Below, one piece after another: positions 3,998 to 53,239 of a DNA stretch of 64,000 bases (positions within the stretch are counted from its first letter, which is position 1; the number at the start of each line of letters is the position of its first letter). The stretch is from assembly GCA_026545225.1 (NCBI GenBank), contig CM048846.1, positions 55,804,270 to 55,868,269 of the forward strand, given 5' to 3'. The position numbers were made by a program, and so were the translations under genes. Origin of the DNA: Cornus controversa. Taxonomy: Eukaryota; Streptophyta; Magnoliopsida; Cornales; Cornaceae. Under the pieces are notes generated by a model, which was given only the letters and a program-made list of their open reading frames with translations, was not told the DNA's origin and made no database searches.

Positions 3998-4171
3998 AAA
4001 ATATTGTGCAACAATAGCTAACATGATTCTGATTCGGAGTAAATCACAAGAAGAAAAAAAAAATTACTTTTGCGTCAAAAGTGGTGGTCAGACCCTAAGT
4101 TGGACTTGGAAAAGTTATGGGAATATGGGCCAGTGTATATAAAACAACGATTGGCCCCAAAATTCGGATAG

Positions 4172-4234
4172 AAATCGTCTCTAATTAGGCTGCGCCCATT
4201 TCCTCTCCATTTGCTTCAAAACGCTGTAGTTTTG
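4172..4234 (+). repeat. Left terminal inverted repeat of the MULE
   Basis: It starts AAATCGTCTC and contains GGCTGCGCCCATTTCCTCTC. Aligned by eye with the reverse complement of 10491-10553 it matches over about 63 bases with two mismatches. Confidence 0.95.
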
Positions 4235-5265
4235 GTGGATGATAAAAAGAAGCTGTAACTTAAGCATGGTAAATACAGATGATGTATTTAAACATTTATA
4301 TAGTATAACTTTGAAAGCAATTACCGAAAATACCGCAGAGATTAAATATTACAAATGTGCATTAAATGTGCCCACCTACCACTTACCCGGATGGGACACA
4401 TGAAATGACCGAATTGTTCAAAAATCTCCCCCCAAAATTTACTAAAAGATGCAAAACTCCTCATAATCTGAAAGACCAACCATTGTCATCTCCTTCAAAT
4501 TTTGTAAAAAATGTATTAGAAGCCGTTTCTCTCTCTTTAGATTCTCTCTCTGTGAATGCATTCCAACTTGAACTTCAAATTAATTTTGTTAGTTCACTTT
4601 CTTTCTCTTTACTTTCTCTCTTTATGAATGCATTTATGAATTTTCATTTACTGATATGCATTTATTTAGTTTGTTTCCATTATGGTGTACTATTGAATGT
4701 ATTTGACAGGTTCATTTATGTTAAAATTTGTTTTTGAACAAAACAGACAATATTTCCTTTTATTTGTATTCTCCACTAACGTTACAGATACATTAAATTT
4801 TGAAATTTTGTATTGTATAAATTTAGTCTTATTCATGTATTATTTACTCATTAATTGACACTTAAAACTGTCCGAAAAAAAAATTAAAATTAATTACTAT
4901 GTTAGAACTAAGTCAGTTATTGACACCAGGTGTGAGAAAATTGGGAAATTTATGTTACTTAAATGGGATGTTTTAACTAACTCAGTCATTTACATTCAAT
5001 GATATAATTCGGGATTTTCCTTTACTCAGTCATTGACACTGAAAATGTGAAATTGGGAATTTTAGTGAGATAAAATGGGATGTTACCTTTACTTCAGCGA
5101 GTAATCTTACTGTACATTATTGTTTTATTCAGTTAGTCATTCAATAATAATCAAGCCTAAGTTATCCATTATAAACCCTGTACATTGCATATAAATTGAT
5201 TAATATTTACAAATGAACTCGACCATTGTGATTTTATTGGTTGATGACCCAGGCTTGTTACTTAA
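4235..5265 (+). other. MULE left subterminal region and presumed transposase 5' region
   Basis: About 1 kb between the left inverted repeat and the transposase start. It is AT- and CT-rich. An open frame at 4366-4737 has no recognisable domain and is rich in Leu, Ser and Phe from CT-rich DNA, so I take it as chance. The region presumably holds the transposase promoter and leader, but no single box can be assigned with confidence. Confidence 0.5.
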
Positions 5266-5274
5266 TTGTATGAG

Positions 5275-6948
5275 ATGGAAGCTAATATAATTAATGTCGA
5301 AGACATACTATCGCCAGTTGTCGAGAGCCAACAAATTGAATTTAAACCAAGGACAAATATGTGTTTTGAATCTGAGGCAGATGCGTATGATTTTTATAAT
5401 GCATACGGGGGTAGAGTCCGATTCAATATCCGAAGGGAGTATGAAAACAAAAGAAAAGTTGACAGTAAAATTACATCTAGATTGTTTGCCTGTGCCAAGG
5501 AAGGTAAGAGGGGGAAGGACAAAAGGGACAAATTTACAAAGACTCCCAGGGCAGAAACACGAACTGGCTGCGGTGCGCGCATAGTCATTCATTACAAGAG
5601 CAATTCTGAGAAGTATATTGTTTCTGATTTTGTAGAGGCTCACAACCATCCCTTGATAACTGAAGAATGCACCCACATGATGCGGTCATAGTGAAAAATT
5701 ACGGCTAGCCAGGCTATTGATATGGAGTTCGCTACCGATTCAGGAGTCGCTGTTCTCAATGCTTTTGAGCTAATGGGAATGTAAGCTGGTGGGAGACCAT
5801 CAGTAGGGTATACTAAGCTTGATGTGCAAAATTATATAAGGACCTGAAGACAAAGCGAGCTTGAATTTGGAGATAAGGCTTGACTGTTGAATTATTTTCA
5901 GACCAAGTGTTGTGAAGATCCGTCATTCTTGTACGCAGTTCAATTGGATAACGAAACAATGATCATGAATATATTCTGGGCAGACCCGAGAATGATAATT
6001 GATTATGGGCATTTTGGAGATGTTGTAACATTCGACACAACGTACAAACTAACCCATGGCAACCGGCCTTTTGCCTTGTTCGTTAGTCTGAACCATCATC
6101 GGGAGACTGCACTATTTGGAGCAGCTCTGATGTACGATGAGACAGTAGAATCATTTGCGTGGTTGTTTGACAGCTTCTTGAAAACAATGGGATGTCCAGC
6201 CCCTAAGACAATCCTTACTGACCAGGACGCTGCAATGGCTAAGGCGCTAAAGCATGTCATGCCCAATACTGCTCATCATCTTTGTACGTGGCACTTAATG
6301 CAAAACGCACAAAAGCATCTTGGCCATGTGTGTAAAAAGGAAGGAGACATTAAAAGTGTTAGATCCACATTAATGTTCTACATTGAGGAACAGGAAGAAT
6401 TTTTGGACAAATGGAAAGAAATGGAACAAAAGTTTAATGTTGTTGGTAACAAATGGTTGTCCAACTTGTTTGATTTGAGACATAGATGGGTCAGGTCATA
6501 CGTTAAACAATCTTGGACGGCGGGGATACGTACAACGCAATTGAGTGAAAGCATAAATACTAGTTTGAAGGCTTACGTAACCAAACAACTCACACTTCCA
6601 GCATTCTTCAAGCACTTTGATAGGCTATTGTACGACAAGCGTTACAAGGAAACTCAAGCTGAGTATGCTTTGCTCAACAAATTACCTATAATTTTAACAC
6701 CTTGTGACATGTTAGTTCAAGTAGGAGACACGTACATAAAGAGGGTATTTTAGATGTTCCAAGAGGAATTCTTAGTAGCTTGTGTCAGCACAAATATAAA
6801 AAGTAAAAAAATGAACAATAATGGTCTGCTTGTTTATGTAGTAGTCCGGAATGGGGAAAATAATGAGCGTTATGTAACAAAGTCAGAGGACAACCAATTA
6901 AGTTGTTCTTGTGGAACTACAAAATTAAGTCAGAGGACAACCAGTTAA
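5275..6948 (+). pseudogene. FAR1-type MULE transposase, broken by nonsense codons
   Basis: One reading frame (frame 1) spans the whole region. The first part (to 5691) is a FAR1 DNA-binding domain with the Cys/His pattern LFACAKEG, TGCGAR and EAHNHPL. The second part (5887-6753) is the MULE/FHY3-FAR1 transposase domain, with candidate catalytic Asp in VVTFDTTY, Asp in ILTDQDAAM, the HHLCTWHL Cys-His motif and TQLSESIN. The last part (6754-6948) begins a SWIM zinc finger (LSCSC) and then loses it. In-frame stops are TAG at 5689, TGA at 5692, TAA after LMGM, TGA twice before 5887, and TAG at 6751. Each differs from a sense codon by a C-to-T or G-to-A change. The first usable ATG is 5275. The protein would bind the element ends and catalyse transposition. 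This copy cannot make it. Confidence 0.92.
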
Positions 6949-6990
6949 TATATAAATATGGTTAGATTAATTTAAAAATTGGCCTCCACC
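6875..6990. other. Central junction of the MULE, likely internal deletion point
   Basis: The transposase stops just inside its SWIM motif, and the converging accessory frame runs out of coding-like sequence at about 6975. A short duplicated piece, AAGTCAGAGGACAACCA, occurs at 6881 and again near 6928. GAACTACAAAATT occurs three times (near 6914, 6928 and 7000 by eye). Such short repeats are typical of deletion and repair scars. Confidence 0.6.
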
Positions 6991-9342
6991 TTCTAGGTGA
7001 ACTACAAAATTTTCATTACCTCTTTTTGTGGTGGCGGGTGAATTTGTTGGTATTTCAATGACAACGTCTTCTAGCTTCTCACGTTCCCCCTTGGTAAAAA
7101 TTTTCTTTTGTAGTGCACTTAGAGGACGATCCTCATCAAATGTCTAAACACGTTCAACAGAGAGTTCTCAATGATGTGTGCCCTCAGATGTTTTATCGAC
7201 ATTGTCGAACTCACCTCTTTCAGGACTTTCAGTCATGGATTTCCTATGAGTAGTGGGTTCCCTCTCAGGTGTCTCATCAATAGTAGCACGAGTGTTGGAG
7301 GATTCCTTCTGAACTCCCCTATCACCACTACACTGTCCGAAAACACTTGCTTGTTTTTGCCTTTTTCGCGTTACGAAATACTCTTCCAAATAATCCATCC
7401 TTTTCTGCATTGATCTCAACTTTCACTGCACATCCATCAAAAGACTGGTCAGTGCAACAAAATTACAAGAAAACATCAATATATATACATAAAGTAATCA
7501 ATATAATTATATTTACCTCCATCTTAAAATCAGAATAGCTATCATATTCTGATTCGGATGTTGATGACTATGGGCGAGTAGATGAGGACAAACCACACTT
7601 TCCAGGCCTAGTATGTGATGGACCTGCATTGTCAGAGGTGGCAGATGGTGTACGAGGAATATCGATTAACTGTTGCAATTACAAATGTTATATTCTTATA
7701 GATAGATATACATCAAGTTTTAAATAACTATTTAACATCGTATTAAATTAATTACCTGACCAATTCCAAAGCCTCCCATCTCCTTCTCCCAAGTGATTCG
7801 TTTCCGAACAAGGTCAGTAGTCCAAAAACCTAATGAAAACTGATCCCCATTCGGATACTCAGGGTATCCCACGTCACATTTCATCATATATAAAATCTGT
7901 TAAAAAGTCGAAAAAAAAAAAATTTAAAGTTTCAAATGAGTCCGGAACAATATTTAACCATTGACCTAGAACTGTATACCTGCAAATAAATCAAACAACC
8001 ACCGTACATTTGTTTAACTTCTCCAGGTTTCACATCTTTCATTGCATTAGCCAAACAATCCCTAACATAGACAGACCAGTTGTAACTGCGAATTTTAGCT
8101 ACATCATTGACAGCACTCAACAAGCTTTGATGGCACTTATAACAACCATTTGGAGCAATTCCAGCACCGCAAGTAAAGAGGACAAACGCTCTCTTCCATT
8201 CATCGCCAGCATTCAGCTGTTTGACCTTGACAGACAAGTCCTTAACATGCATTGCGTTGGACTGCAGATATCCACCTTTGCATATCCACTCATCCTCCAA
8301 GTGTCGTGTTTTCGAGACATTAGCAACGCCCTTGGGTAAGCCTAGGATGGTGTGAATATCATGTGCATTTAATGATATATGCATATTCTGACCAAGTCTA
8401 ATTATAGAGGACTCCCAGTCAAATTTTGATATTAGATACTGGCATAAGTCTTCATCCAAGTGGTCACATTTCAGTTTCAACAGATTGCCGAAACCAATCT
8501 CCTCCACATTTTTTTTCTTCTCAGAATCTAAATTTTTAAGAACATGAACCAACAAGGGGTAAGAGCATCTGTGCCAACCACCCGACTTTCGGATGAGGTG
8601 TTGGGTTAATTTCTGAACAATATATGAACATAACTTAATTATTAAAATGGACATGGTCAGTAGGGAAATATATTAATTTTAATTCATCATGACTAGTATA
8701 TGTAATCAAATTAACAAATTAAAAAATTACATTACCTTCTTTTTCCGAACTATCTTTCGTTTTGGTTGTGTCTTCCTGAACTCCTCTATATCCTTTTGAT
8801 ATACAGCCTCATATTGAGACTTCTCGTCATCACCAAGGGACCTCCACCGGGCAGTGGCTTCACTATAGATTGAACTAAGTTCCTTATGGGTCATTTTTTT
8901 CATCCTGTTATGCTCTACTCTGTATTTCTTCACAAATTCAGACCTGATATCATATAAAAATTAACAATATGCAGTTGGTAAAATATAATTTATATGAACA
9001 TAACAGCAAAATATATTGGATATAACAGATAAATTTTTCAAACACTTAGTACGAAATAGATTTGCAATAGGAATAAGAGAAACATAGTGTATACCTGAAT
9101 CTTATGTATGGATTTGCTGGCCCTTTGGCCCCTTTCTCAGACACATCATGTACATTAGCCACAGAACTGTCTCTATCGTCACTCATTGAAGCATCTAGTT
9201 CCTCCTTAGAACTAGTAGAAGCTGATGGAAAATCACCAGTTGGTTCAGGAATGTAATCCGAATCACTTTCTGTTTCATTGCTGTTATAATCAGTTGTTCT
9301 TCCCTTTACGGTGCTTCTCGCGATAAATTTGACCCTCGTCAT
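6975..9342 (-). pseudogene. MULE accessory gene: acidic N-terminus, HMG box, plant-mobile/ULP-like domain
   Basis: I traced six minus-strand exons with GT-AG borders and matching phases: 9095-9342, 8736-8943, 7980-8612, 7756-7896, 7517-7669, and about 6975-7425. Exon 1 starts at ATG 9342 and is Ser/Asp/Glu-rich. The exon 1/2 join puts NPYIRFR before SEFVKKYRVEHNR, making an HMG box with the core WRSLGDDEKSQYEAVY. Exon 3 (SGGWHRCSYPLLVHVLKN, then HDIHTILGLPKGV) resembles the plant-mobile/DUF1985-type region found in front of Ulp1 protease domains in ULP-like genes carried by MULEs. Exons 1-4 are open. Exon 5 has TAG at 7568-7570, and exon 6 opens with TGA and carries more stops. A basic stretch (VTRKRQKQ) lies in exon 6. 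No Ulp1 catalytic domain is left, and the gene ends at the central deletion. The function is unknown. DNA binding through the HMG box is an inference. Confidence 0.8.
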
Positions 9343-10490
9343 TTTGAGTATTATTTTTGTCTACAAATCATGGTTGAAAAACCTGTGGTAACAATTTTTG
9401 GCTTTAGCATATACAATATACAATTCAAGTACACCATCATAGTGACTGACCACAATGTTGTTAATTACCCATGTGAAGTTTAAACAAAGAGTAATTAAAG
9501 AATAAACTTATATATGTCCTCATGGAACTGCTTATCAAAAGGATTAGTTACACACTTGTTGCTTTTGTTTGGGCAGTATGATACATTTTATATTATCACA
9601 TTTTATAGAACAATCCCTCAATATTAAACCATATATATCATCCTATTTTATTTCAACAATCCATCAATTCAAACACTTTCATTATACAAAAGAATCTATT
9701 AAAACTTATTTAATCACATTAAAACACGTGCACAATATGCAATTTCAATTATTACTTTGACCACCAATCCGGGCCAAAATAACTAGGTTTAGCTACATAA
9801 CACGTGAAAAATTTGACTCAAGCATAGCATTAAAATTGAAACAAATACCTGTGGTTTTGCAATGATAGGTTGAGCAAGGGAAGACCACCACGCCGGAAGC
9901 GAACAGGAGCTCAGAGACAGAGATTGAGAAGAAAATTGAAGAGCAAACTCCATTACACACACAGAAAACCTATGGTAAGGCTCCATAACACACATGTAAA
10001 CTTACATTAAAAACGAAATTAATACCTCTACCACCACGACGGAACCGAACAGGAGCCCGGAGATAGCGATTGAGAAGAGGAAGGATGCAGCGTTGAGAAA
10101 GGGAACACCACAGAGACCACCACGATTCGACTACCACCACGTCGACGAAGACCACCACAGTTCGAATAGCACCACGCCGGAAGCGAACAGGAACAGAGAT
10201 TGAGAATAATTTCAAAACAGATATTCTATTCAACTCTGTGTATAGGTTTGTATCGTTTTTGTGAGGGAAGGAAACCAGAGAAGAAAAGGTAGAGTTGGAT
10301 ACAGAGGGGCATTTTTGTACTTTCAATGTTAATATATTGTATAAGTATATGTTAATATTTGGTATTCAGAGCAACAAATACGTATAGGTAAATATTTTTT
10401 ACCTTACATGGATACTTGTCAACATCCAATTTCACAATATATGTGTATCAATTACAACCGCAAGATCATTTTTTAAACCAATTTTTAATG
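9343..10490 (-). promoter_or_regulatory. Upstream region of the MULE accessory gene with three related GC-rich blocks
   Basis: Three related blocks lie at 9883-9930, 10029-10080 and 10168-10207. Each contains ACCACCACGCCGGAAGCGAA or a close variant, followed by CAGGAG and a GAGATTGAGAA-like end. They are far more GC-rich than their surroundings and lie upstream (minus sense) of the accessory ATG. They could be leader, promoter or captured sequence. An open minus-strand frame at 9970-10326 covers two of them but has no known domain. Confidence 0.5.
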
Positions 10491-10553
10491 CAAAACTACA
10501 GCGTTTTGAGGCAAATGGAGAGGAAATGGGCGCAGCCTAATTGGAGACGATTT
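10491..10553 (-). repeat. Right terminal inverted repeat of the MULE
   Basis: Reverse-complement partner of 4172-4234. It reads CAAAACTACAGCGTTTTGAG on the plus strand and ends GAGACGATTT, four bases before the 11-bp target duplication. Confidence 0.95.
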
Positions 10554-10568
10554 ATGTCCCCAAAATTC

Positions 10569-20600: not shown

Positions 20601-23600
20601 ATGAAAAATAATATTACTTTATAGGATCATATATATATAAAAAGACATATTTATTAGTTGTCGTGTCCCCGCCGTGTCTGTATCCTAATTTTTTACTATT
20701 TGTTGTCTTTGTGTTCATGTCATATCGTATCTGTATCTGTGGTTCTTAGGAACCAGGACTCGAATTTGAGACGTCAAGGTAGTAACCCTGAAATCCTCAA
20801 ACAAGTCCCATCAAGCAAGAAGAAGATATCCACATCTGAGAAAGCTCTCTCAAAAAACTGCGAGAGCTCGAGAAACTGTAGACATTATCAACTAAACATG
20901 AAGAATATTGATTTGCCATGGGATTGAAGTCTATCAAATGACTATTGTTGGAAAACTTCTCTAAAAAACAAAAGAAGAACCGTCAAGGAAATACCACAGA
21001 CCCATGCTGCAAAGAAGAAGATGAAAACTCTGCTAAAACAGAAGCAAAGTACAAGCAGTCTAGCAGAAAACAAATATAATCTGTCTGGGAAGAAGAGATG
21101 GATAGCTACAGGAATCATGTTGCTTTATTTTACTTAATTGTACTTTTGAGTTCTTCAATGTCTGTAAGAAAACAAATGTGCCCCTTCAATGATGTAACAA
21201 TCACTCCAAGGAGAGAATTAATGGTGGGGCTTAGATTGATTGTACTTCACATTATACAGTGATGGAAATTTTCTGAACCTTAAGGCAACCATAGTGGGGT
21301 TAATTCAATTATCCAAGCAATCATAATTAGAAGGGTCTACCTACCAAAGAAAAAAATTAGAAGCGTCTACCTTACGCTTAAATAATCCCTAAAAACCGAA
21401 CCAGATGGAAAATTACACCCTAGATTGAAAAAAAAAAATTCCCCCTGCTACAGAAGGTACACAAAACAAGGGCAAGACACAATGGTTAAAGCATGACATC
21501 TAGGACAGAGGAGCAACATTAGGGTGCAATCATTACCATTGTTAAAAAACTTAAATTTTAAAAAATAAAACATAAAAAATAAATTGAAGAATAGAAAACT
21601 AAGGTGATTTCTCAGAAGTAACAATGTCCAAAATGAACGATATTCACACTCAACCTACAGTAACATGGACTTCTACTAGAACTTTAGGCACTAAAAGCCA
21701 TCTAAAGCCTAACCACATTTTATTATCATCTATGTAGGAATTGTAGAACTTGAAAATTAAATACACACCGACAGAGTCTTGAATATAAATTACCTGAGTT
21801 AATAAAGTATCCTAGTCCAATAACAAGTCCTTATAATTTTTTTATCCCCAAGAAGAAAATTTCTAACACCTAACCCATAGTCTAACTCAACTTAATAAAT
21901 AAAGGAAAAAAGAAAAAAAAAATCCTAAACTATTAGTTTTTTGCAGATACCCCTTGACTTTTTTTTTCGATAAGGTGATACCCCTTGACATTGCATAAAC
22001 TAAACTATCAAAAACTTGCAAATCAGGACATGTAGTTATAGTCTACCATCCAATACCACTTGGTGGTGGGGTGGCATGGGGGAGGAGTTCATATACCACT
22101 TAGTAAATTGGGGGAACGTGCTGGAGATTAGGAGGTTGGCTCTGTTCAACAAGGCTTTGTTGGGCAAATAGCTATGGAGATTTGGGGGAGAGAGATCCAG
22201 ATAGTGGAGGAGAGTCGTCGCTTGTCGGGCTGGGGAGGGTGATGGTGGGTGGCTGTCTAGGGAGATCAGTTTCTCTACGGGGGTGGGGGTTTGGAAGCTC
22301 ATTTGGAAGGGTTGGGATGAGTTCTCCAAACCAATTCGATTCAGGGTCAGAAGTGGGAGGCATTTCAGATTTTGGGAGGATCTCTGGTGTGGGGATAGTG
22401 ATATGGCCCGTAGGCTCCCTCAGCTTTTTAGGATCGCTACGGACAAACGCCCCTTGGTTGCTAACTGTTATTAGCTTGATAGCGGAAGATTGACTTGGGA
22501 TGTTCAGTTTCGTAGAAGTTCTATGACTAAGAGATTGCAAAGGTAGGAGAGTTTCCAGCATTGTTGTACATTCAGGTGGTGGAAAGGGAGGGGATGGATG
22601 AGATGGTTTGGATGGGTTCCCGAAAGGAGTCTTTGGAGTTCCGAGTTCGTTCAATCTATCAGAGCCTCTTGGAGATCCGGGGCCTCACCTTTCCCTGGAA
22701 GGCCATTTAGAGATCGAAAGCTCCCCTAAAGGTCGCTTTTTGTGCTTGATCAGCTGCTCTTAGGAGGATCCTCATCTTTGACAATCTTAGAAGGAGGAGG
22801 CAGATTGTGGTGAACTGGTTTGTATGTGTGTAGATGTCAAAAAATTACAGTTCTTGATTTTGGGCTCACAGATCTAACACATACACTTAAAATCTGTAAT
22901 TTATTTAACTGAATGAATAAAACTTCCAATAACTTTTACAAACATTCTTTTTTCTTGTCAAACAAACTTTCTCTTTTCTTATCCCACTTTAGAAAAAAAA
23001 AACAGATCCCCCTTCACTTTGGGATGGTCCTCCTTTTATATTGTTTCTCTTTCTTTGGACTCATCTGTTGGAGCAGGAGGTGGGCTTTTTTGTGATGATG
23101 AACTCGTCTTAGTCTTATCCCTTGTTTTGGGGCTAATCTTATCAGTCGGAGCATGAGGTGGGTTTTTGTGATGATGGGTTTTAGGGTGGTGTGCTGGGCT
23201 GGTCAGGTGTTCGGGCCTGTGCTGATCTGCTGGGCTGGTCTGGTGTTCGGGCCTGTGCTGATTTGGGCCATATTTTGGGCCGGTATATTTTTGGGCCTAC
23301 AATGTGCAAGAGGGCAGAGGAGTCGGTGAACCATCTTTTGCATTGCCCAGTGGCGAGGGATGTGTGGGCTATGTTTATGGTGATGTTCGGTATGCATTGG
23401 GTGTCTCTCGATTCTACGGTGGACATGATTGAGGCTTGGAAAGGGTGTACAATGGATAGTCAAGCCAGAGATGCTTGGAAGGCCACCACCCTTTGTTTAT
23501 GGTGGGACTTGTGGCAAGAAAGAAATAGGAGATCCTTTGATGAAGAGGAGACTCCTATTTGGTCTCTCAAATACGTCATAATGAGTTCTTTATTCTTTTG

Positions 23601-26600
23601 GGTAAATGGACTAAAATGTAAATCGATGGGGGATTTTGTGGATTTTGTTGATAGTTTGAAATTGTAGTCAGTTGTTGTCGTCGTTTGTGTATTCTTTTGG
23701 GAGCGCTCCTCTCTTGAGCTGCTTTAATAAAATCTTACTTATAAAAAAAAAGGTCCAATAAACTTGTGCCATGTGTCACTAACTTTTTAAAAAGCAGGAA
23801 AAGAAGAAGAAAAGGAATGATCCAACTGCAGAAACCACCCGTCTTAAGTATTCTTCTTCACTGCTTTTACATTTGAAAACCTTAATACACAAACACATGA
23901 ATACAAAACACACCTCAAACTAAGAAGCCTTAACATCAAGTTATCTCCTGTTATCATCTTTCAGTCGGCAAACATTACATCCTCTCTCTCTGTGGATCAA
24001 TTTTTTGAGGTTTCTCTACAACTCTCTCTCTCTAAATGAGTTTCTTGGATGAGGTTTTTCTATAACTTTTAGATCCCCATGCGTTTGAAGATGGAGAAGG
24101 TCGTTTTACTCTGTTTAAACTCTCAAAAATGGATTTTGATTGAATCGAGGCACGTGAGCTAGAGTCCAATCATGTTGGAACCAACAGCTGGCCGCAGTAT
24201 TGGTGGATTTTAGCTTTAATGGTCGTGGCCTATCTTGCTCATTTCTCTTCCTCTGGTTGCCACCTCTATTTCCAACAACCACTGCCACATGATTTATCCA
24301 CCACTATCCTTCATCTCATCTTTCTTTTCTACTTCTCTCTCAATCATATCATCCTCATCTAAAGGACATGCAATGTCACGATCTACAAAAGCAACTCTCT
24401 AAATTGGTGGGGTCTTCTTTAAAGGCATGGGGTGACTTACAAGTAACAACAGTGGGTTTCAATTGGTGGAGATCACATTAATGGTTTGGGTGAATTTCAT
24501 CGTTTTACCAAAGAAATGAAGTGAGGGCTTGTGGTCATGGTAATTAATATCTTTGCCATTAGTTCCATCTAAATCCAAAATTGTTTAAAACCTCAGCAAC
24601 TATGTTAATTGTCTCCATTAGATGAGGATTCTTCTTAAGAGTTTCAAGAAAGGGTACATCGTGTTGGAGCTAAAATCATTTCCACCATTATGGAGCAAGC
24701 TGATAATGAAACAACTGTAGGCAAAAATGTTGTGATGATAAGACATAGTATAGATCTTAATCTAGCACCTAAAACTATTCACCATTGTGTGTTCACAAGC
24801 TCAAGTGCTTCAAGGACTACTGGAATGATGTATGGTTGAGGCAATTTGATGGTGTAGAATATTGGTTCTTAGTGGCCTTGGAGGTGAGACAACTATGGTG
24901 GTTTGCTAACGGCAGTGAACACGGTACGGTTCGATCTGGGAGGCATGAAGCAGAACCAAATCAGTCCCAATGGTACCAAATATATTAGGACCAATCGGAA
25001 CCATTGGAAGCAAACCGAACCGTACCATAGAGAACCGGTTTAGTTTGGTTCGATTCTACACCTTAGGGCATTTTATAATTCAGCCTAAATGACTAGAAAA
25101 AATAAAAATAATAAAAAGAAACGTTGAAAAAACGTGATGAAAAGATTTCAAAGAGAGAATCTGGAAATGGGTAATTGGGTAAAGAACAAAGAGACAAGTC
25201 AATGTAAAAAAATGAATTTAAAAAAAAAAAAAGAAAGAAAGAGAAGAGGTGATGATTCTTGATAATAAGTTCACCGATTCAAAGAGACATGTGACCACTG
25301 AAGAAGTGGAAAGAGATGAGTTAAAAGATGATAGTTTTGGAGTAGAGAGATGAGAATCGGAATATGAAAAACAAAGTTTATGAGGGAGAACAGAGCAACC
25401 ATTGGAGGGAGAGAGAGAGAGATAGGGTAGAGTTAAGTGTTTTATATATATATATATAATATATCTATCATGATCTTGTGTAGTTTGGTTGATACGCTCA
25501 ACCAATCAAACATGAATAAGTGTATTATATATAATATATATGTATTCGCAACGATTCAGTTTAAATCCGGTTAATAATGGCTCATTCTTCACTATTCAAC
25601 ATTTTTTTCCCTTTTAATAAATGGTCAACATCTATATCACTGCCTTGGGGATTAAATGCAGCATAACAATGACATATTTTCACAGGAAGGTAAGAAGTGG
25701 AATGTACCTGCACAGGTGTAAAGGCCAAACTTGAAGTCAGTCCTGAGGTAGCACCACTGCTTCCATAATTCTTTTCCTTGAACCTGGAAATAGTACAAAG
25801 CTCATGAGATTAAAGTTGCTCCAATCCAAAAGAAGTAAAAAAAAGCTTAAAAAATAAGGAATATTATTCAACTTCAAGAGTTGAAGAAGAACAATTATAG
25901 TTTGACTGGATGTTAAAAAAAAAGGGAATAAAGAGGTGCAGAAAGAAACCTACTTTTTAGCAACTTTGGCAGCAAGTTTGCTCTGACCAATGGATACACG
26001 CAATTTTCCGCTTCCAGCCTGACCAAGCATTCCATACCCTTCTCCCAATCCGTCACCTATTTTTAAAAAACAACACATAGTAAACAATAAGGATAGAGAA
26101 GAAATGGATTCCGCATTCTAAAGTGGCACTAAGTTAAGTTACACGGACTCTTCAAAAGATGTGTAAAATACCCATGTTGGACAAACCAATCGGACATAGG
26201 TATGGCATGTCTCCGACACATCTGATGGGATATGCACCACACAAGAATATCCATTAATTTCAAGTTTATTATGTAATTATAGGAACACAATCTTACACAT
26301 TCATTTTCTTACATTATTGTTTCAAAACGAGTTTAGTCCCTAAAAATAAACGAAAATTAAATAATATTAACATTTAGCTATGTCCCCGTGTTTTTAGGTT
26401 TGAGAATTTGATAAATCTGATGGTTAAACACATACCCACAATGGCACACCTACCCGAGCCTATGAACGTAGGCTTCAGTACAAAAAATGTCAGAAACAAC
26501 ACCTAGCAACATGCAGTTAGAAACATGTCAAAGGTAGAAACATGTAAAAAGTAGATGCACCTAGCGACATGCAGTAAGAAACATGTCAAAGGTAGAAACA

Positions 26601-28616
26601 TGTAAAAAGTAGATACTCCCAGCGACATGCAGTAAGAAACACGTAAAAGGTAGATGCAAGTCTGCAACTAATCAAATTAATAGTTACAACTACTCATAAT
26701 TCTAGATGATCTAAACTCCATAAAATTTACCTAAAGAACTCTCTTCAGGAACTCCAAATTGCATCCGGTTTGCCAGCTTCCTCATGTCCGTTATTGCATA
26801 TCTAGAATATAAAAGATTAGTTGACACACATAAACTAATAACAACAATTATGAGAGAGAGAAAGAGAGAGAGAGTTTCCTGCATAAGTCAAATAGAGAAA
26901 CTGCACTACCTTTCCTTCATCTTTCTCAGCCGACGCCCACCTCTCTTCTTCTTGGGCTCAGAATCAGGAACAGGAAGAGGTTTGGGTTGCTTCGCAGGGG
27001 GTGGCTCTTGCCACTTCTCAATTTTCTTACGGATCTCTTCCCGGAAGAATCTTCCAGTCTTCCCAATTGGATCACCTCTTGTGGAATCTACACGTGCAGC
27101 AAGTGTTGACTTTGCAGCCAGTAGTCGGCATGCACGCATCCGCAGAGAAGGGGGTGTGCTCTGAAATAATTCTGTTTGCTCAATATAACCTACATGAAAT
27201 TGTGATGTTGCAGTGGAAAACCCTGCCAGGTTCTTTCTCTTGGCACCAAGAAGCTGAACATTGCAAGCTGGCATCTTAGCTAATGATGTTAGACCACCAG
27301 CAGTACCCATAAGTTTTGCCGCAACAGCGCTCCCAACTATGGCAGAAAGATTGGGGGCAATATACCCCATTCTACTTTCCACAAAATCAAGGACTTTCTT
27401 TTTTGCTGAATCAAGAGCAAGAGCCCGGTCACATGCATCAACTGTCTTCTGGAGGACTTCCTCTGGAAGTGGCTTGCCACTAGTGGTTGATGCTGTAACT
27501 GAAACAACCATAATGATAGCAGAGGGTAAAAGCCCTTCCAGATCAACAAGGGTTAAATCCATTTCATTCCCAATCTTCTTAACCACTCGGGCATAATCAA
27601 TTGGATGATGAACAAGTGATTCAAGCTCCGGAAATTTCAAACGGTACTTGTCACGGATAAAATTGTGGATAATAACAGTTTCATTCTCGATGTCAACTGA
27701 CAATGCATTACAATCTACTATCAGTTGGTATTCAGGATCATCTTCCAAAACTATTCCGTGATTCGACATATCAGACCCCTTTTCAAGTGCATATTCAACT
27801 TTCTGCAACACACACCATATTACCATTTTTCCAAATCAGGATTCACATGAAAGGTAATTGAGCAAAGCATTGAAAACTGCCTAGATACAAGCCTGGCACA
27901 ATAATCATCATGCCTATTACACAAGCTTAAAGAATGCAAAAGAGAAGAAAAAGGAAAAGGCAAATTGAATCCTAGGTATTAGAGATATGCAAAACAAACA
28001 CATTATATATGCCTATCCTCTGCAATTAAATACGAAATTTTTGGTTGAATAAAAACTACAAAACAAGGAAAAATATAAGAAATTGAAGCTCAGTTCTGAA
28101 AGCAGGAGTACCAAGCTAGACAACACGGTTCACATATCAATTGGGTATTTCAACTTTTCAAATTAGTCCACATCTAGAAATAGGGTTTACCAAGCAAAAC
28201 AAAATGCAATAAAAAGAAAAACCAACCTGCATAATATCGATGTAGCGCTGTGTTTTCTGCAATTTCGAAACACTATCAAGATCATCATAATTAAGAGCTT
28301 CTATGTCCGCGAGTTCCCCATCAATATCTTCTTCCATGTTCTCTGCATCCACATTATCCTCATTCTGAAAGAAAGAAAACTTATCACAACAATAACATTG
28401 AACCGGAAAAGCAAACACCTTCATATACATAAAAATACATTCTATCACTCACATGGCACTCACAAGAGTATCAACTTCGTTATCGGATAATTCGTCAAGG
28501 TCTGCCAGGAAAGAATCAGCAAGAGTTGTCTGGAACAAACATAGCATAATTTGTCAATATGAATACAGTTATATGAATATGATACTCATTAGACCACAGT
28601 TGTGAGTGCAAACCAT
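14035..28616 (-). CDS. PRP31: U4/U6 snRNP splicing factor PRP31
   Basis: Eight coding exons were read with GT-AG borders and consistent phase: 28614-28616 (ATG alone), 28464-28529, 28227-28364, 26910-27802, 26731-26801, 25954-26056, 25708-25783 and 14035-14142. Together they give 1458 nt, 485 residues plus stop, as expected for plant PRP31, with no in-frame stop. The N-terminus is acidic (LADLDELSDNE). The large exon carries the NOSIC and Nop domains (LEGLLPSAIIMVVSVTAS, then MGYIAPNLSAIVGS). The PRP31 C-terminal region includes KKKRGGRRLRKMKER, and the tail is GIELSNPQ through GTFSKIKRT. PRP31 binds the 15.5K-U4 snRNA complex and bridges U4/U6 to U5 for tri-snRNP assembly in the nucleus. The oddity is the last intron, 11,565 bp long and full of transposons. 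A leader intron (about 28663-28800) is likely. Confidence 0.95.
14969..15090. repeat. 64-bp tandem duplication in the PRP31 intron
   Basis: CCATCTTACATTTTCTAAGT begins at 14969 and again at 15033. Each copy runs through CTTTTCGGGCTGGGCCA with almost no difference, so the duplication is young. Confidence 0.9.
15244..16554. mobile_element. Non-autonomous terminal-inverted-repeat element with 8-bp duplication
   Basis: The ends CATAGTTGTTAAAGGC and (reverse complement of the right end) CATAGTTGTCAAAGGC match. The direct repeat GCCATGCC flanks at 15236-15243 and 16555-16562, or 9 bp if one terminal base is assigned to the flank. The subterminal parts are rich in AAGGCGC/GCGCCT motifs on both sides. 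The 8-bp duplication suits hAT and a 9-bp reading suits Mutator, so the superfamily is open. No transposase is encoded. The interior holds an A/GAA-rich minisatellite. Confidence 0.8.
15740..15975. repeat. Minisatellite of about 60-70 bp inside the 15244-16554 element
   Basis: Blocks with GCATGCACTTAACAGGTTCT followed by GCAGAAGTCT and then an A-rich spacer recur about four times. The open frames over this stretch are Phe- or Lys-rich low complexity and not genes. Confidence 0.8.
16961..17903. repeat. 460-bp tandem duplication in the PRP31 intron
   Basis: CAAGGTATTAACAATTTTCT begins at 16961 and 17421. Both copies carry a CACACA tract, a (TC)n tract, a TTTCTCCACAG acceptor-like site and a short ATGATGGA(T/C)TGTCAGAGT segment. 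The second copy continues in an open frame from 17854 that matches nothing I recognise. The arrangement resembles a captured gene 5' end that was duplicated, but the source is unknown. Confidence 0.85.
17615..17643. repeat. (TC)n microsatellite
   Basis: A pure TC run longer than the corresponding tract at about 17141-17164 in the upstream duplicate copy, so the tract length has changed since the duplication. Confidence 0.9.
18181..18426. repeat. 96-bp tandem duplication with partial third copy
   Basis: CTGATGTAATTGCCTAATAT starts at 18181 and 18277, exactly 96 bases apart. A third partial match, TATGGTGAAACCACTGTCT, starts near 18408. The copies are nearly identical. Confidence 0.85.
20215..20750. 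mobile_element. Small Mutator-like non-autonomous element, first copy of a family
   Basis: The direct repeat AACCAGGA flanks at 20207-20214 and 20751-20758. The ends TAGGAATCGCGGACAC and (reverse complement of the right) CCTAAGAACCACAGATAC are imperfect inverted copies. The right side shares GCCGTGTC(T/C)GTATCCTAATT with the element at 32584-33075. No coding capacity was seen. Confidence 0.65.
22100..23752 (+). mobile_element. LINE (L1-type) 3' fragment, truncated and interrupted
   Basis: Frames at 22100-22480 encode the post-RT region typical of plant LINEs (LALFNKALLGK, GVWKLIWKGWDEFS, RFWEDLWCGDSD). Frames at 23303-23667 encode the zf-RVT zinc-binding end (MCKRAEESVNHLLHCP, then LWWDLWQERNRRSFDEE). 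The fragment ends in TTTAATAAAATCTTACTTAT and a poly(A) run at about 23742-23751, which fixes the 3' end and plus orientation. The RT core and everything 5' is missing. About 22840-23300 is unrelated sequence between the two coding parts, probably a later insertion. Stop codons and a frame change (22182-22480 is open in two frames) show it is dead. Confidence 0.85.
23191..23265. repeat. 36-bp tandem duplication
   Basis: The block GCTGGGCTGGTCAGGTGTTC followed by GGGCCTGTGCTGAT occurs twice in a row inside the segment that interrupts the LINE. Confidence 0.8.
26057..26730 (-). other. PRP31: PRP31 intron 5 with a 58-bp minisatellite
   Basis: The intron lies between coding exons 5 and 6. At 26501-26655 the unit beginning ACCTAGCAACATGCAG repeats at 26501, 26559 and 26617, an exact 58-base period and about 2.6 copies. 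The stretch 26140-26460 has repeat-like TCGGACATAG and TCCGACACATC motifs that may be an old mobile element, not resolved. Confidence 0.8.
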
Positions 28617-41399: not shown

Positions 41400-44300
41400 T
41401 TTTATCCATTACTCTAAATATAATGTATTGTATTTGGATTGCACATCTTTTTTAGGCTCAATTATGCAAACAAAAAAAAAAGTCATATAGTTCTGCTCAG
41501 TTTCATAGGTTATCACTCAATGTAATCCAATGCCAAATTTAGGATCTTACGATTTTACTGATTTCACAATACCATTACTCAAGAGAAGAATCATTTCTCT
41601 TTTCATTCTTCCACTCTAAGGAACTAATTAACAGTTAGAAAGAAATCATTTTATATAGCACTTCACTTAAGACAACCCCTTCCAATGAGAATTTGATGTC
41701 AACTACAATCACTTATAGTCATATACAACTAACCCGGTGTATAATTCTGGACTGCGTCCACCTTTTCTCCCTCATAGAAAGAAATGATCCTCATTTCTGA
41801 TACTACATGTTAGGGTCCTCACCGACTATCAATTTATCATTCACTTAAACATCATATTCAACCTTTATAATACAACTTTTCAACTCATTTCACATAATCC
41901 AAATGTCACATTTTCAAACATACAATGTCATCACATGTCCATTAACTCAAAGGAATTAGATTAATTCCAAGTTCTCATCTAACTATATCAATAATACCTC
42001 TTAGACATACCCTATCTAGAATCCCGGTATCACAATGCCACCAATACCTTAGTCAATTTACTGACTTCTAATCCTCAATAGTTGTGTAAGATTGCAACGT
42101 CGCTTTAAACCACTACCAAATTCTTGGTTTAGAAATCATTAAGGTAAATCATACATTTTCCAACAATCCTAGACTCACAATCTCAAAGTCTATCACCATA
42201 TGTCTATTTCAACATCACAATTTGCTCAATTTTCAAACCTCTACCTAGGTTTACCATTTCTTAGATCTAGAATTTCTAAGTGATGACTATATGCCACTAC
42301 TTGTCATGCGACGCAAAAGGAAACACTAAAGTGCAATGCTTAGTCACATGTATCACATATTTCATATAGCACATAACATACAATATGTTAAATCAATTAC
42401 AACCCACACCATGCATGATATGACATATGATGCATCTAAACAACCCAATGCTCTAGCCCTCGGGCTACTACTAGAAAAATACCTATGACCACGCACAGTC
42501 TTGATACATCCTCTGAATGAGAAAGTGTGAAAATACGGCCCCGTTTCCCCTAGTATACTAACACATACTATAATGCACCACATCAAGAGTGGTTGTCTCA
42601 ACCCTCAACCCCAAATGAACACATGTTCAAATTCTCATTCTTCGTCCAAGGTATTTACACCTTATGGCTTTGATACACTTTTTGCGATAACATAATTCCA
42701 ATCTAATACATGATTGGACTTCATACTAGATCCTTAGGTTTTAAATCTATTGTTTTGATGAAATTCTAGTACTCACTGTACCACTCCAAATCCACACGTA
42801 ATCTAACCATTATTCTTTGTCCCTAGGTATCCCCACCTAGTGCTTTTCCAATCAACCAATACTCATCATCCCCGGGTATTCAAACCTAATGCTTTAATAG
42901 TAATTGGGAAATCATCAATTCCTTTCAAATCAAATCGAGCTTCAACTTTGACCCATCACCTCTAGGGACTCTAAACCTAGTGCCCTAACAAACTACATGT
43001 CAACACACTTCCAATCTAACATGTGATTGGACCCTCACTCTTCGTCCTTAGGTTTTTCAAACCAAGTACTTTCATACTATTCCATTACTTAACATCTCAT
43101 CTCAAATCCACACAAGGTCTGACCATTTCCCTTTGTCCCTAGGCGTTTAAACCTAGTGCTCTGATACCAATTTGTCACACCTTGATTTTTGACTCCCGTG
43201 AACTGAGGGTGAACAATAAAAGTCCTCCCCGGATCCACACTTAAAAATCGCTCAATTCCTAAACTCAACTTACTATGTGATCAGAATTTTAGAGTGATAC
43301 TTAGTTCATTAGAAAGAGGATCCAAATATAATCAATTTCCAAAAAGACCATGCTCAATTCCAATTTAGAATGAAGAAATTATGCCCGATTAAAGTTTGGA
43401 CCAATTTTAGAGCTTGCCCGTAATTACAAGGGCGATTTTGTCCATTAAATTCTAATACACCACTTCAACCACTAAATCAATGTAGAATCATAATTACCGA
43501 CATACGTTTACCTACGTATGACTCAACCTCAATAGCTTATTGTGAGTCCGTTACATAACGTCCCAAAATTCTCCAACACTATTTCAACAATCCACTAAAC
43601 ACACATTACGATGCATTGCACAAGGTGCGTAATATCCTGCCTAATCCACTGGAATCCCACTCAATACACTCAATGATTTATGATGAATCGTTATTGGGTT
43701 TATGATGCATCACCATATCACGATGCATCGTAATGGGGATTACGATGCATCGTAATCACTCACCCTGCTACAATCTCTAAACCTTCAACTGACTACAATC
43801 AACATTACACCTACCAAATTCTCAATCCACAACACGCATACATTGAGATTCAACCATACACTATATGGTTCATTCCTTTACTCATCCTAAACATACAGTC
43901 ATAAAATAAAAATTATCATTTTTACACATCTCAAGCATCCACAAAGTGATAATTCATCACAATTGGATTCCACCTCCTACACTTGGAACACAAAAATGAT
44001 AATCCATGCATTTTATACACAAACTTGAGCTGTGTATAAAATACATCAATTTAAAAACCATCAATTTTACATTTCCATAAAAATCAACATTAGGCAACAT
44101 AAGTCCACAATGTACCTATAACAGCCCATTGTCTATGCATACAAGCTCCAAATGAATATACAAGTTATATATATAAGAATGTAACTACTATGCCTACATA
44201 ATCAATATGCCACATGCTGACATGGATAGCCAAATATATATAGTATGTGCACAAATGTCCAAAAAGCATCTAAGTGCTCCAATGAGCTCCAAGTGACTAG

Positions 44301-47300
44301 TTAAGTCCTTTTTGTCCGTCCTCAATACCTTACTTATAAATATGTTTAAGGGAGAGGGGTGAGCAATTCAATGACTTAGTAGAAATACCCCAACCCACCT
44401 AGGCATTGACTCAACACCGACCTACATGTTGCTTCACTACATGGCATACCAATGTTTTTATGCCAACCAATGCAATGCACACTATGAATGAATGCATTTA
44501 ACACATATATATAAGGCTTAACATATAAATCATATAAGCAACAAGATATAACTTCTCTCTCTCTAGCCTTATTCGATATCCCACATGATTTAGACCACTT
44601 TGACTGAACATGTAACCTAGGACACCTCCTATAACAAGTGTATGATTTGGATATACTCCGACAGTGTCATGCTTCATTGGAAGTATTTTGGTTTGCCTCT
44701 AGGTGATTAGTCAAATTCGACTGTCACCTATTATGGATATAACCCTATTTTTGCCTCAAGGTGATTAGACGTATCCGACTATCATCGAGTATGGATATAA
44801 TCCTGTCTTTACCTCAAGGTGATTAGACATATCTGATCGTCACCGAGTATGGATATAATATGATCTTTGGTCATATCCTTGGTATGATTAGATCACTTTG
44901 ACTGTCATACCTCATAGGGCGATAATGTCATTTATATAGCATGGGTGGCAACTATTCCGATATCCCATGAACGGTCCATTTTCTCCATTTCCTCACAATT
45001 ACCTCATATATGCATTTCTAACATATAATGTCTAGCATATCATATTCATGCTTCTTAAATGTACAAGCTAGTAATAAAGGTGATTAGTACACATTTCTCA
45101 CTATATAACCACATATAATCACATATATATCAAAACTTGCATATAAGTCAAATATGCACATAATCTAGCACATTAGTGTTCATGCTCTTCAAATGCTCAT
45201 CAATGCTACGATGTATTTAGCATGCATTTCCACTACTCCACATCACATTTAACCACATATATGTCACATAATATGCATATCACACTTATATGCACATAAT
45301 CCAACACTTATCATATTAGGTTCATGCTTGGCCTATATCCATTCATGCTATAATTATGTCTAGCATGCTCTCAACCTTCCTATACCTCCATAACCCAGAT
45401 ATGATCACTTATATGTACACTGCTATGCTCACATTTCACATAATACCCATACACCCATAATACATCACCTAGATCATTATATGAATTTATTTAGCATGTA
45501 AATACCACAAGTGAAAAGGGATATACTAAACCACAACCCCTACCCATCTCTATTATATATGTTGCTCAACCAAAACCTCTCCAATTTCGCCCAAACCCTA
45601 AAATCGATACATAGGATAGAAGGAGAACCCCTACCTCAAAATTAAAGACCATTGAAGCAATCTCCAAGAATCCCAACGGGTTCCATCTTGTTGAAATATG
45701 ACTTTTTTTGGTTCAAATCGAAGCCCTAGCCGCCCTTTATGCCTTGTCATTCTTCAACGAATCCTGAACCAAGCCAAAGTTGGCCGAAATATAGAAAGAA
45801 GGTGGATGGATGAAGATGGGAGAGAGAAAAGAGAGAAAGTAGCATGTGAAATGGGCTGGAACCTCTCAGCCCAGATATTTATTTTGTCTAGGACACGCAA
45901 AATGACTAAAACGCCCCCGGGCCACTTAACGTACCTTCCCGACCTCCGTTTTTGATTTTGAAAACTCTTACGGCCTCGAAATCACTTTCTTAACTCTCGA
46001 AACATTTTATCTAGGCCAAAATAAAAAATTATTATTTTTTGAAAAAAATTCAGATTCCTTGGCCTACCCCGACCGCGTCCCGGGCCCTAGTTGACCAAAA
46101 AGTCAAACTTGTCCAAACTTTTCCAAACTTTTAAAAATCTTATAGCATGCTTCCAAACATATTTTTCACTCTCAAAACATCCATAAAATAATTCTAAGCG
46201 CATCTACAGCGAAAATGATGAAAAAAAAAAATGGAAAAAATTTGGTCATAGTCGTTACATGTCTATTTCAACATCACAATTCGCTCGGTTTCAAACCTCT
46301 ATCTAGGTTTACCATTCCTCAAAATCAGAATCTCTAGGTGGTGACTACATGTCACTATTAGGTATGCGACGCATAACAAAACATTCATATACAATGCGTT
46401 AGTAACATGGATCACATATTCCATATAACATATAACATATGACATGTTAAATCCAATACAACTCACACCACACATGATATAACATATGATCCATCTAAAC
46501 AAATTGATACCCTAGCCCTCGGGCTAAAACTAGGAAAATACCTTTGGCCACATATGGTCTTGATACATCTTTTACCTGAGAAAATGTGAAAACATGGTCC
46601 AGTCTCCCCTAGTATATTAACACATATTAGAATGTACCACATTAAGAGCGGTCGTCTCAATCCTCACCCTCAAATGAAATCATGATCATTTCTCATTCTT
46701 CGTCCAGGGTATTCTTACATATACTTTAACAAACTATATGTCAATCCATAATTTTAATCCATCACTTGATTGAACATCATTTTACATCCTTAGGTTCTCA
46801 ACCTATTACTTTAATGTAAGCCTAGTACTCAATGTACTACCTCAAATTCGCTCGTAATCTGGCCATTACTCTCTGCCCCTAGGTATCCCAACCTAGCACT
46901 TTGCTAGCAATCTAGATATCATCAAATCCTTCTAAATCAAAACAGGTTCCAATCTTGACCCACCACCCCTAGATAATCCAACCTATTATTCTGACAAGCT
47001 ATATGTTAATATACGATTCCAACCAACACGTGATCGGATCCTCAGTCTTCATCCTTAGGTCTACGAACCTAGTACTTTGATACCATTCCATTACTCAATA
47101 CATTATCTCAAATCCACACGTGATCTAACCATTTCTCTTTGTCCTTAGGTGTTCAAACTTAGAGATATGATACCATGTTGTCATGCCCCAATTCCTGACT
47201 CCTGAGAATTGAGTATGATTGTGTCACCGAACCACATCTTGAACTATAATCACCCTTGATATCTAGCTTTGATACCAAGCTGTCACGCCCCAATTTTTGA

Positions 47301-50267: not shown

Positions 50268-53239
50268 CTTTTGTAGCCTGATATATAAGAGCATTTAAGG
50301 GTTTAGAGTGAGTAACAGAGAGAAAATGCAAAAAAAGAGTGAATGAGCAAGAGCTAGGGTTTGGGGTTGAAACTTGTAATTTCCTGATTTTCGCATACTG
50401 AAATCTTTTGTTAGATCTTTGCTGTAGACATAGGCACATCACCGAACTACATAAATTCTTGTGTTCTGTGTGTTGTGATTGATTTGTTTTGTCTTGATTT
50501 GCAGCTGTTTTTCACAACAAATTAGTATCAGAGCTTTCGATTCTAAGCTGGGATGTTGACCAAGTTTATGAAAATTGATAAGTTTAATGGCATAGACGAC
50601 TTCAACTTATAGGGGGTTAAGATGTAGGCCCCGTTGGTTCAACATGGGATATCCAAGGCACTAAAGGGAAAGGATGCCCTGCGAGAAAATTGGAAGGACG
50701 ATCAGAAAGATGAGGCTATGGAGAAAGTACACAGTACGATTCTGTTACGTTTGAGTAACAATGTTTTGCGAGAAGTTTCTGGAGAGACTACGATGGATGC
50801 TAGTTAGAGTAATATGAGAATATTGGGTATCCTGCTTATGCAGTAGAGATCGGGGTCCAATTTTGACAGGTGTTTTTATTCATTATTTTTGCCATAATTG
50901 CATTTTAAAGGATGTTTAGCATGTTTTGAATGTAGAAAATATGTTTGAGAACTTGTTTAGAAGTTATGAGAAATTTTTGGAACGTTTTGGTAAATTTGAG
51001 AATTTTGGGTTGGCGGGGCCTGGGAAGCGGATTGGGTGAGCCCGAAAATTTGAAATTTTTTTGAAAAATATTTATTTTTGATTTTGGAGCAAACAAAATG
51101 TTTAATGAGTTAAGAAAGTGATTTCAGAGCCGTAGCTGCTTTCAAAATCGAAAAGGGGGCTTGAGAGGTACGTTAAGTGACTTAAGGACAAAATAATCAT
51201 TTTGCACTTGATGAGTTGTCAATACACTTATGTGTATATTGTTAGGACAGATTAGGGAGAGAGAGAAATCAACCATTGTTGCTTTCTTCAAGCTCTCCTT
51301 TTGCTCCATCTTCCTCCTTCATTTTGAGCACCTTAGAGTGAGATTTGGAGCTTGCTCCAAGAGAGAAAGTTACTCCCTTCTTCTTCCTCTTCAAGTTGGT
51401 GGGTTCAAAGTCCCCCATTAGAGAGTTTTGAAAATTGAGGGTAGTGGGAGTTTGTATTCGGGCTTCGTCCAAGAAGGAAAGTTTGTTCTCCTTGTTCCGA
51501 TCTACGGTTACACGGAAAGAAAGTTCGATTGGAGAAACTTGGAGTTTGGTAATACTAGGGATTGCTAAAGAAAAGCTCCAAACTTAAAGTATGGATGTTT
51601 CCTCCTTCTTAGTTATTGATTCTAGGGTTTTAGTGAATTTGGAATTGTGTATATTGTGCTAGCATGTAGAGTGAATGGTGGAAGTTGAGTGAATTATCCT
51701 TCCCCTCTTTACATTGTGTAATTATGCATGCTAGAGTTGTTCAACTTATGATATGTGATTAATTGTGCAATTGTACTTGTAATGTATATGAAATGAGAGC
51801 ATGTTTTGTTATGTGGTGTATTGTATGCATATGTGATCAATATGCATGAGTTGAAGTATATATGTGACTATATGAGAATTATGTAGAATAAATGCCTACT
51901 AGAATTATTATAATAAGAATATGCATTGAAGAGCATGAGAATTATATGCTATATGCGGTATATGTGTCTTATGAGCATGTATATGTGTATATCGGAGTGT
52001 TGTCTGTCATGCCCCAAAATTCGGACTATCGAAACTACCCCGGTCCAAGCCCGAATTCTGGGTGTGAACCCGATTACTCAACCACATGAACATCTAAACC
52101 TTTCAAAACAAATAGCGGAAGACATTACATTTATCAATGAATCAATTTCTTATCTTATTCATCAATCTTTCAACACAATGGAAGCTTAACAATTTCATTA
52201 TGAGTCTCTACATAGGAAACATGAACTCTCACTACTCAACAGTACACAAAAGACTCACATTCAGGTTTTGGTCGGCTGATGGATGTCCCACCAATTGGCT
52301 GAAACCTAGGCAGTCCATTGGCTGGCTACCCTTCAGCTTCAGTCGGCTAAATGATGCATTTTAGTCGGCTGAAGGGTTGTTTCAGTCAGCCAAAATAGGT
52401 ACCTGCAAAGCCTGCAAATGCAAACATTCGGTATCTCAGCATTTTGGTCGGCTGAAGGATGTTTTAGTTGGCTGAAACTCTCCTACACCTGTTTTCCCTG
52501 TTTTCAAACCTTAATTTGTTCTCCACAATGTTCACATTTCAAGGGGTATCCTAAATGTCAATTCCTCATCATTTACCAGCTTTACTTTCATCATATATGT
52601 ATAATCACATAGAAGGTTTCCTTACGCACACGACACTTAGCTTATTTCATGCTTTCTCTACTCAATTATACCAACATTTAGAAACATGCATAATTTGACA
52701 TTAATGAAATTATAAACCATCATTCTCACCACCTATCATTCATCATGCCCAACACATATATATAAGATATGAAATTACAATCATGTTCCAAGGCCAAATT
52801 TAAACATATGAATTCATAAGGCATAAACATACATGTTCTCAAACATAAATGGTCTTTACATATTCATTGCATACATATAGTCCACAATCCGGGCATGCAA
52901 TCAAATACAACAATAATAAGTCTTTAAATGAAACCAAAATTTGCTACACGCTAATACTCTATTAGGGAGGCTCCATAACATCCTTTCCATTTCCTGAAAA
53001 GAGTTAATCCTCATGGGATAAGCAACCACACGCTCAGTAGGAATGTCTAAAAATTCTACAAGTTCCGTGAATATCACATAAACATACATTTGCATTTAAT
53101 CATGTTAAGCAAACATTCACATGTCACAACCATATCGTAAGTAATGTAAAATGCAATATGACATGTACAACTCCCTCATGTTTTCACAAGCTAATTGGGT
53201 TCTGATTTTACGGACCACCCAATTCCACCTAACCAAGAC

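Follow-up and report, generated by a model that had tools for sequence, protein, structure and literature searches.

A 64,000-nucleotide stretch of the Cornus controversa genome (contig CM048846.1 of assembly GCA_026545225.1; C2:55804270-55868269, here called the window) contains at 4166-10559 a Mutator-like element (MULE) of the FAR1 (Jittery-like) type, in a copy that has decayed and lost an internal segment. Comparison with relatives in the same genome strongly supports, at the level of the family, a MULE whose transposase gene converges with an accessory gene for an HMG box joined to a ULP-type domain, and we are close to certain of the anatomy of the element family as described below. By analogy with the VANC and KIU proteins, we suggest, as the likeliest of the roles considered but at a probability of roughly 0.4, that the accessory protein may keep the element expressed despite host silencing.

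The family was followed through the host genome (771.7 Mb, 61 contigs) with searches that score the best candidates only (150 of 255 for accessory exon 3, 135 of 648 for the transposase), so that all genome counts given here are lower bounds. The exon 3 peptide had at least 152 matches, which form 137 loci among the matches listed, and the transposase at least 137, which form 131 loci among those listed. Within 30 kb of the 137 accessory loci, the nearest transposase is convergent at 68, divergent at 1, and on the same strand at 0, with none found at 68. Shuffled positions gave a mean of 1.67 pairs and a maximum of 9, versus the 68 convergent pairs observed (the sizes of two contigs were guessed). 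The single divergent pair, in which the accessory match is 36% identical and the transposase 91%, probably consists of two different elements. A first-pass annotation, made from the window sequence by itself, had described a two-gene MULE with a convergent accessory gene, and the orientation of 68 of the 69 pairs bears this out.

Exon-3 matches were sorted into clades A to D, which are identity bands of the search rather than branches of a tree, and the window copy belongs to clade A. The exon that encodes most of the HMG box was found at no fewer than 62 of the 68 convergent pairs, over all four clades, and upstream of exon 3 at 93 or more of the 137 loci (A 52/55, B 8/27, C/D 33/55), where the clade B figure rests on HMG peptides from clades A and D and is therefore a lower bound. 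The clade A HMG peptide has 63 loci. A same-strand exon 3 follows 59 of them, mostly at 116-230 bp and often at 124 bp; the other 4 are without a nearby exon 3, and 3 of these lie within 30 kb of a transposase. For the clade D peptide, 33 of 57 loci are upstream of exon 3 and 24 are without it, 8 of which are within 30 kb of a transposase and 16 without a partner found. The Peptidase_C48 (C48) domain of the Ulp1 protease family has 41 matches, of which 21 follow a same-strand exon 3 at a distance of 1.6-2.2 kb; of the other 20, 7 are within 30 kb of a transposase and 13 near neither transposase nor exon 3.

These parts are also enclosed by the same element ends. Among 10 hand-picked larger pairs of terminal inverted repeats (TIRs), 9 enclose transposase, HMG exon, and exon 3 over spans of 15.0-24.6 kb, and the tenth (11.4 kb) encloses the HMG exon and exon 3 with no transposase match. 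The two-gene interpretation had been staked on relatives of the accessory gene not being confined to single host genes outside MULEs, and the enclosed copies show that they are not. A rival explanation, that a host HMG gene was invaded by a MULE and that the two are chance neighbours, could draw on the existence of host HMG genes in plants and on the 2 matches that the HMG profile gave in the whole genome, neither of them at the window accessory gene. That profile cannot count accessory genes because an intron splits the box. With the shared TIRs and the position of the clade A HMG peptide upstream of exon 3, we reject this explanation for clade A and give it next to no weight overall.

The accessory gene of the window copy is predicted, from sequence, to be spliced at the four joins proposed in the first-pass annotation; all have GT/AG borders and keep the frame, and the same joins occur in a relative at 33-60% protein identity, with exon lengths (window/relative) of 248/248, 208/202, 633/621, and 141/141. 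The join of exons 1 and 2 had been said to create the start of an HMG box, a reading made to depend on a profile match for 8736-9127. Pfam HMG_box indeed matches the window product across this join (28.2 bits, cut-off 25.4, E 2.6e-6, amino acids 73-146), and it exceeds the cut-off in the one copy examined from each other clade (B 26.1, C 28.6, D 26.6 bits). Of 22 rows in the HMG alignment, 21 match HMG_box at E <=0.01, and clades C and D have a box that is shorter in its first half. Exon 2 alone is predicted to form three helices (mean predicted local distance difference test score, pLDDT, 79); Foldseek with this fragment returned 0 PDB matches, and a PDB sequence search with the window protein returned weak HMG matches only (best E 0.13). 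For exon 3 by itself, the predicted structure was too poor to use (mean pLDDT 33.6). The plant-mobile/ULP-like region that had been assigned to this protein is not borne out in the window copy, since PMD, DUF1985, and C48 profiles have no match to its product up to E 10; ULP exons are present in the family and missing from this copy. An in-frame stop in exon 5 means that the window copy is not intact.

We read the full gene from one distant clade B copy (L053, 10 kb), in which the predicted model has 12 exons with GT donors and AG acceptors and encodes 892 amino acids followed by a stop. The domain order is HMG box (26.1 bits, amino acids 73-143), an unclassified middle domain, a coiled coil recognized by eye, and a Ulp1 domain (Peptidase_C48, 62.6 bits, E 6.2e-17, amino acids 671-839). 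The occurrence of HMG_box and Peptidase_C48 in one 892-amino-acid open reading supports the fusion. The C-terminal part aligns with SENP2 (E 6.7e-5), with His, Gln, and the nucleophile Cys kept; at the position that we take, from the triad numbering, to be the catalytic Asp, clade B and most clade A rows have Cys. By this alignment the C48 catalytic set (His, Asp, Gln, Cys) is incomplete in clade B and in most clade A rows. This pattern could fit a SUMO reader or decoy, in which a non-cutting Ulp1-like domain would bind SUMO and the HMG box would place the protein at SUMO-rich silent chromatin. The Gln and nucleophile Cys would be needless in a pure reader, however, and the pattern is drawn from clades A and B only; we consider this reading distinctly unlikely.

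Neither PMD nor DUF1985 profiles match the clade B accessory protein. The middle domain was considered as a Pfam PMD (PF10536) and this was rejected by profile: the genome has at least 143 PMD matches, and none of these comes within 1.5 kb of exon 3. Two PMD matches stand within 8 kb of transposases of the window-type family (C6:57873893 and C2:56276278), away from the accessory gene, and are perhaps chance neighbours. The genome search suggested by the first-pass annotation, carried out in the host genome, thus finds relatives convergent to FAR1-type transposases within TIRs, with HMG-box and C48 matches and without PMD; DUF1985 gave 0 matches, and no control genome gave a match to that profile either.

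Clade A elements carry a small GRF zinc-finger gene as a third gene. Its 156-amino-acid protein has a GRF zinc ribbon (38 bits, cut-off 25.9) and, by eye, a coiled coil and a hydrophobic C-terminus. Of the 20 clade A copies compared, 13 have this gene on the downstream side of the accessory gene (e.g., L044:6746-7213); the window copy has lost it by deletion. Among the 101 of 144 search rows covered, 35 of 37 GRF loci at >=70% identity follow an accessory gene at no more than 9 kb, versus 0 of the 63 more distant loci, which also have 0 family transposases within 30 kb.

If the accessory protein counters silencing, the HMG-ULP protein would act in trans for the element. The HMG box would tether it to DNA, for which the tandem arrays of the element itself are one candidate site, and the Ulp1-like domain would remove or read SUMO on nearby chromatin or silencing proteins, with the net effect that the element stays expressed under host silencing. 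The analogy is drawn because the accessory gene evolves faster than the transposase, as stated for VANC versus VANA (PMC5735166); because variable arrays occur in non-coding parts, as in the target regions of VANC (PMC10398659); and because the related KIU proteins have a Ulp1 domain and target those VANDALs that encode KIU (PMC13317346). A fuller version, in which a large and old FAR1-type MULE lineage would use a DNA-tethered HMG + Ulp1 SUMO protease or reader on its own fast-changing arrays to clear SUMO-dependent silencing, we consider rather unlikely as a whole.

Between clade A (window) and clade B (L053), nonsynonymous divergence (dN) is 0.19 for the transposase and 0.34, 0.44, 0.58, and 0.79 for accessory exons 4, 3, 2, and 1, so that the accessory gene has two to four times the dN of the transposase. 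Synonymous divergence (dS) is 0.92-1.75, near saturation, and dN is below dS. Such rates are unexpected for a core partner of the transposase, and they count against the idea that the protein is a transposition helper, a counterpart of mudrB whose HMG box would bend or join the element ends and whose Ulp1-like domain would control SUMO on the transposase or on repair proteins. The convergent two-gene plan kept with the transposase, the HMG_box scores above the cut-off in every clade, and the apparent requirement of mudrB for integration (PMC6446971) are in its favor. Nothing here links the accessory protein to the TIRs, and the ULP domain would be superfluous; we treat a helper role as possible but doubtful.

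Within clade A, pN/pS is 0.48-0.74, exon divergence is about equal to intron divergence, and indels are rarer in exons than in 3 of 4 introns. This suggests that clade A copies mostly decay, with little sign of constraint within the clade. The like divergence of exons and introns, the stops in most clade A copies, and the frequent capture of genes by MULEs (PMC2528002) might point to a functionless passenger, a captured host gene fragment as in Pack-MULEs. Against this, exon order and convergent orientation are the same in four clades, dN is below dS between clades A and B even if dS is near saturation, and several exon-3 matches in clades B, C, and D are free of stops, so that a passenger is very improbable. 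Two clade B copies (C6:57881346-57890033 and C9:51180379-51188661) have identical scores for transposase, exon 3, and HMG exon, with no stops in the matches; this is possibly the result of recent transposition, the sequence having been read for the C6 copy only.

The arrays to which an anti-silencing protein might bind are variable and lie in non-coding parts. A 92-bp repeat recognized with TRF precedes the accessory gene in clade A: it is present in 17 of the 20 copies compared, in 1-20 units, with 1 in the window copy (an example of an array is L042:173-2024). Between the genes of the clade B copy are about 39 units of 45 bp and 8 of 46 bp (L053:2740-5097). Clade A units and the 46-bp clade B units share the 12-mer TAAAATAGGATG, a result reached in 6 of 2000 shuffles. 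Several points weigh against an anti-silencing role: the other two unit comparisons are weak (64 and 397 of 2000 shuffles), the arrays of the two clades are built of different units at different places, and tandem arrays can be neutral. The DNA binding of HMG boxes is often of low sequence specificity, and the Cys at the Asp position means that the Ulp1-like domain may not cleave, so that protease activity is not assured. VANC has DUF1985, the profile for which the host genome gave no match.

Several known systems share parts of this anatomy. MuDR has two convergent genes, and the Mu target site duplication (TSD) is 9 bp, so that the window element resembles it in gene orientation, TIRs, and TSD; it differs in the transposase branch, being of FAR1 type, and mudrB, to our knowledge, is without an HMG or ULP domain. 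In MuDR-group MULEs with an antisense PMD gene the accessory gene is likewise antisense (PMC6446971), whereas the exon-3 domain here is not a PMD by profile. KAONASHI (KI) MULEs and KIU in Arabidopsis have a ULP-type gene reverse to the transposase (PMC2528002, PMC13317346), as in the present family by the convergent pairs and the C48 matches downstream of exon 3. KI MULEs are non-TIR and mudrA-type, in contrast to the 69-bp TIRs, FAR1-type transposase, and absence of a DUF1985 match in this element. VANC proteins attach to non-coding tandem repeats, where they cause silent marks to be lost, and the VANDAL MULEs that encode them share with the window family an accessory gene that evolves faster than the transposase and non-coding tandem repeats (PMC5735166, PMC10398659). 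The window family differs in having HMG + ULP and no DUF1985 match, and the anti-silencing likeness is by analogy. The Jittery-like MULEs of grapevine and melon, from which ULP in such elements is known, have a Jittery-type transposase with a ULP coding sequence downstream, and the accessible text does not mention an HMG box or GRF gene (PMC2528002).

In the accessible parts of the open-access literature we found no description of a MULE whose accessory protein has an HMG box; the string "hmg" in those of PMC13317346, PMC3418495, PMC8277862, PMC8616336, and PMC4524691 is only the DOI code of Hum Mol Genet. As far as we found, the HMG box, the unclassified middle domain, and the steadiness of both alongside the transposase are new. 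Genes of ULP1 type turn up repeatedly among MULE and CACTA transposons, with no settled role given in the accessible text (PMC2528002). With an HMG box kept before a ULP domain in four clades, the binding of DNA and the handling of SUMO by transposons become connected in a concrete way that can be put to the test, and some copies, free of stops in their matched parts, are available for such work. It also suggests that known Jittery/ULP elements are worth re-reading for an HMG exon, which is easily missed because an intron splits the box. A tethered SUMO protease or reader that clears silencing would, if true, explain why plant DNA transposons frequently retain ULP1-like genes.

The ends of the window copy were placed with the help of its relatives. 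Inverted ends had been reported as 63 bp; they are present, and the arms are 69 nt long and 94% complementary. Relatives' ends mostly start GG[A/-]YAGAAATCG. The 11 identical bases CCCCAAAATTC that had been taken for an 11-bp target duplication are also present, but 14 of 20 relatives compared have the same element end with differing flanks, mostly with GG preceding A/CAGAAATCG. The element therefore includes two of the 11 identical bases, which leaves a TSD of 9 bp (CCAAAATTC). The window element thus has both the TIRs and the TSD of about 9 bp by which MULEs are recognized. In 10 relatives with both ends read, hand-chosen among TIR pairs, the TSD is an exact 9 bp in 3, an 8/9 match in 2, and an exact 10 bp in 1; 2 need a shift or 1-bp indel (by eye) and 2 have none.

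The transposase assignment made at first reading was correct, though the gene is broken by stops. One plus-strand piece matches the FAR1 profile (E 2.4e-22) and a second the MULE transposase domain PF10551 (E 1.2e-26, 93.5 bits, cut-off 27.6), and the frame 5266-6948 has 7 stop codons, starting at 5689, 5692, 5782, 5845, 5881, 6751, and 6946. The window transposase is cut before its SWIM part, which is found in clade B (SWIM zinc finger, 26.6 bits, cut-off 19.6). N-terminal FAR1 and C-terminal SWIM is the pattern given for plant Jittery elements (PMC6446971), and the Jittery-like assignment, by domain pattern, joins FAR1 in the window with SWIM in clade B.

The window copy is an internal-deletion derivative of a longer MULE. 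In other clade A copies, kilobases separate the counterparts of window 6916 and 6942 (L037 and L041 include both sides), and the junction in the window copy is filled with 13 nt also present at 6999-7011 and 17 nt also present at 6880-6896, which could reflect abortive gap repair. The deletion removed the later exons of the accessory gene, among them the ULP exons, together with the C-terminal portion of the transposase. Among the 20 clade A copies compared, HMG exon 2 is found in 19, the exon with the ULP His in 14, and that with the ULP Cys in 13; the window copy has neither of the latter two. Feature coordinates are collected in Table 1.

Table 1. Features of the MULE copy, in window coordinates.
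Feature	Position	Strand	Basis and remarks
TSD, left copy, CCAAAATTC	4157..4165	.	flank comparison with relatives
Left TIR, 69 bp	4166..4234	+	inverted-repeat comparison; at least 41 genome matches (best 40 of 96 candidates scored)
Transposase, FAR1 DNA-binding part	5266..5691	+	FAR1 profile; terminates in stops at 5689, 5692
Transposase, MULE domain part	5884..6753	+	MULE profile; terminates in stop; at least 137 genome matches
Internal deletion junction with filler	6914..6943	.	comparison with clade A copies, which have kilobases there
Probable accessory exon 6 region	7168..7422	-	open reading frame, similar one in relatives; coiled-coil-like start (by eye)
Accessory exon 5, 3' end approximate	7545..7669	-	in-frame stop at about 7570-7568
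Accessory exon 4	7756..7896	-	splice model
Accessory exon 3, middle domain without Pfam match	7980..8612	-	splice model; at least 152 genome matches
Accessory exon 2, bulk of HMG box (to about 8754)	8736..8943	-	splice model; 3 predicted helices; at least 65 genome matches
Accessory exon 1, from ATG	9095..9342	-	splice model; HMG box starts at about 9126
Single unit of 92-bp repeat	9586..9679	.	amplified up to about 20x in relatives
Right TIR, 69 bp	10491..10559	-	inverted-repeat comparison and ends of relatives
TSD, right copy, CCAAAATTC	10560..10568	.	flank comparison with relatives

Rfam and tRNA scans of the window gave 0 matches. Elsewhere in the window, a 309-amino-acid open frame at 26906-27835 (minus strand) resembles the splicing factor Prp31 and is presumably a host gene, and a 160-amino-acid frame at 23185-23667 (plus strand) resembles the end of a reverse transcriptase of the long interspersed nuclear element (LINE) type. 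Direct repeats of several hundred bases each, 70-92% identical and spaced at 4.0-4.7 kb, lie at 42231-58053.

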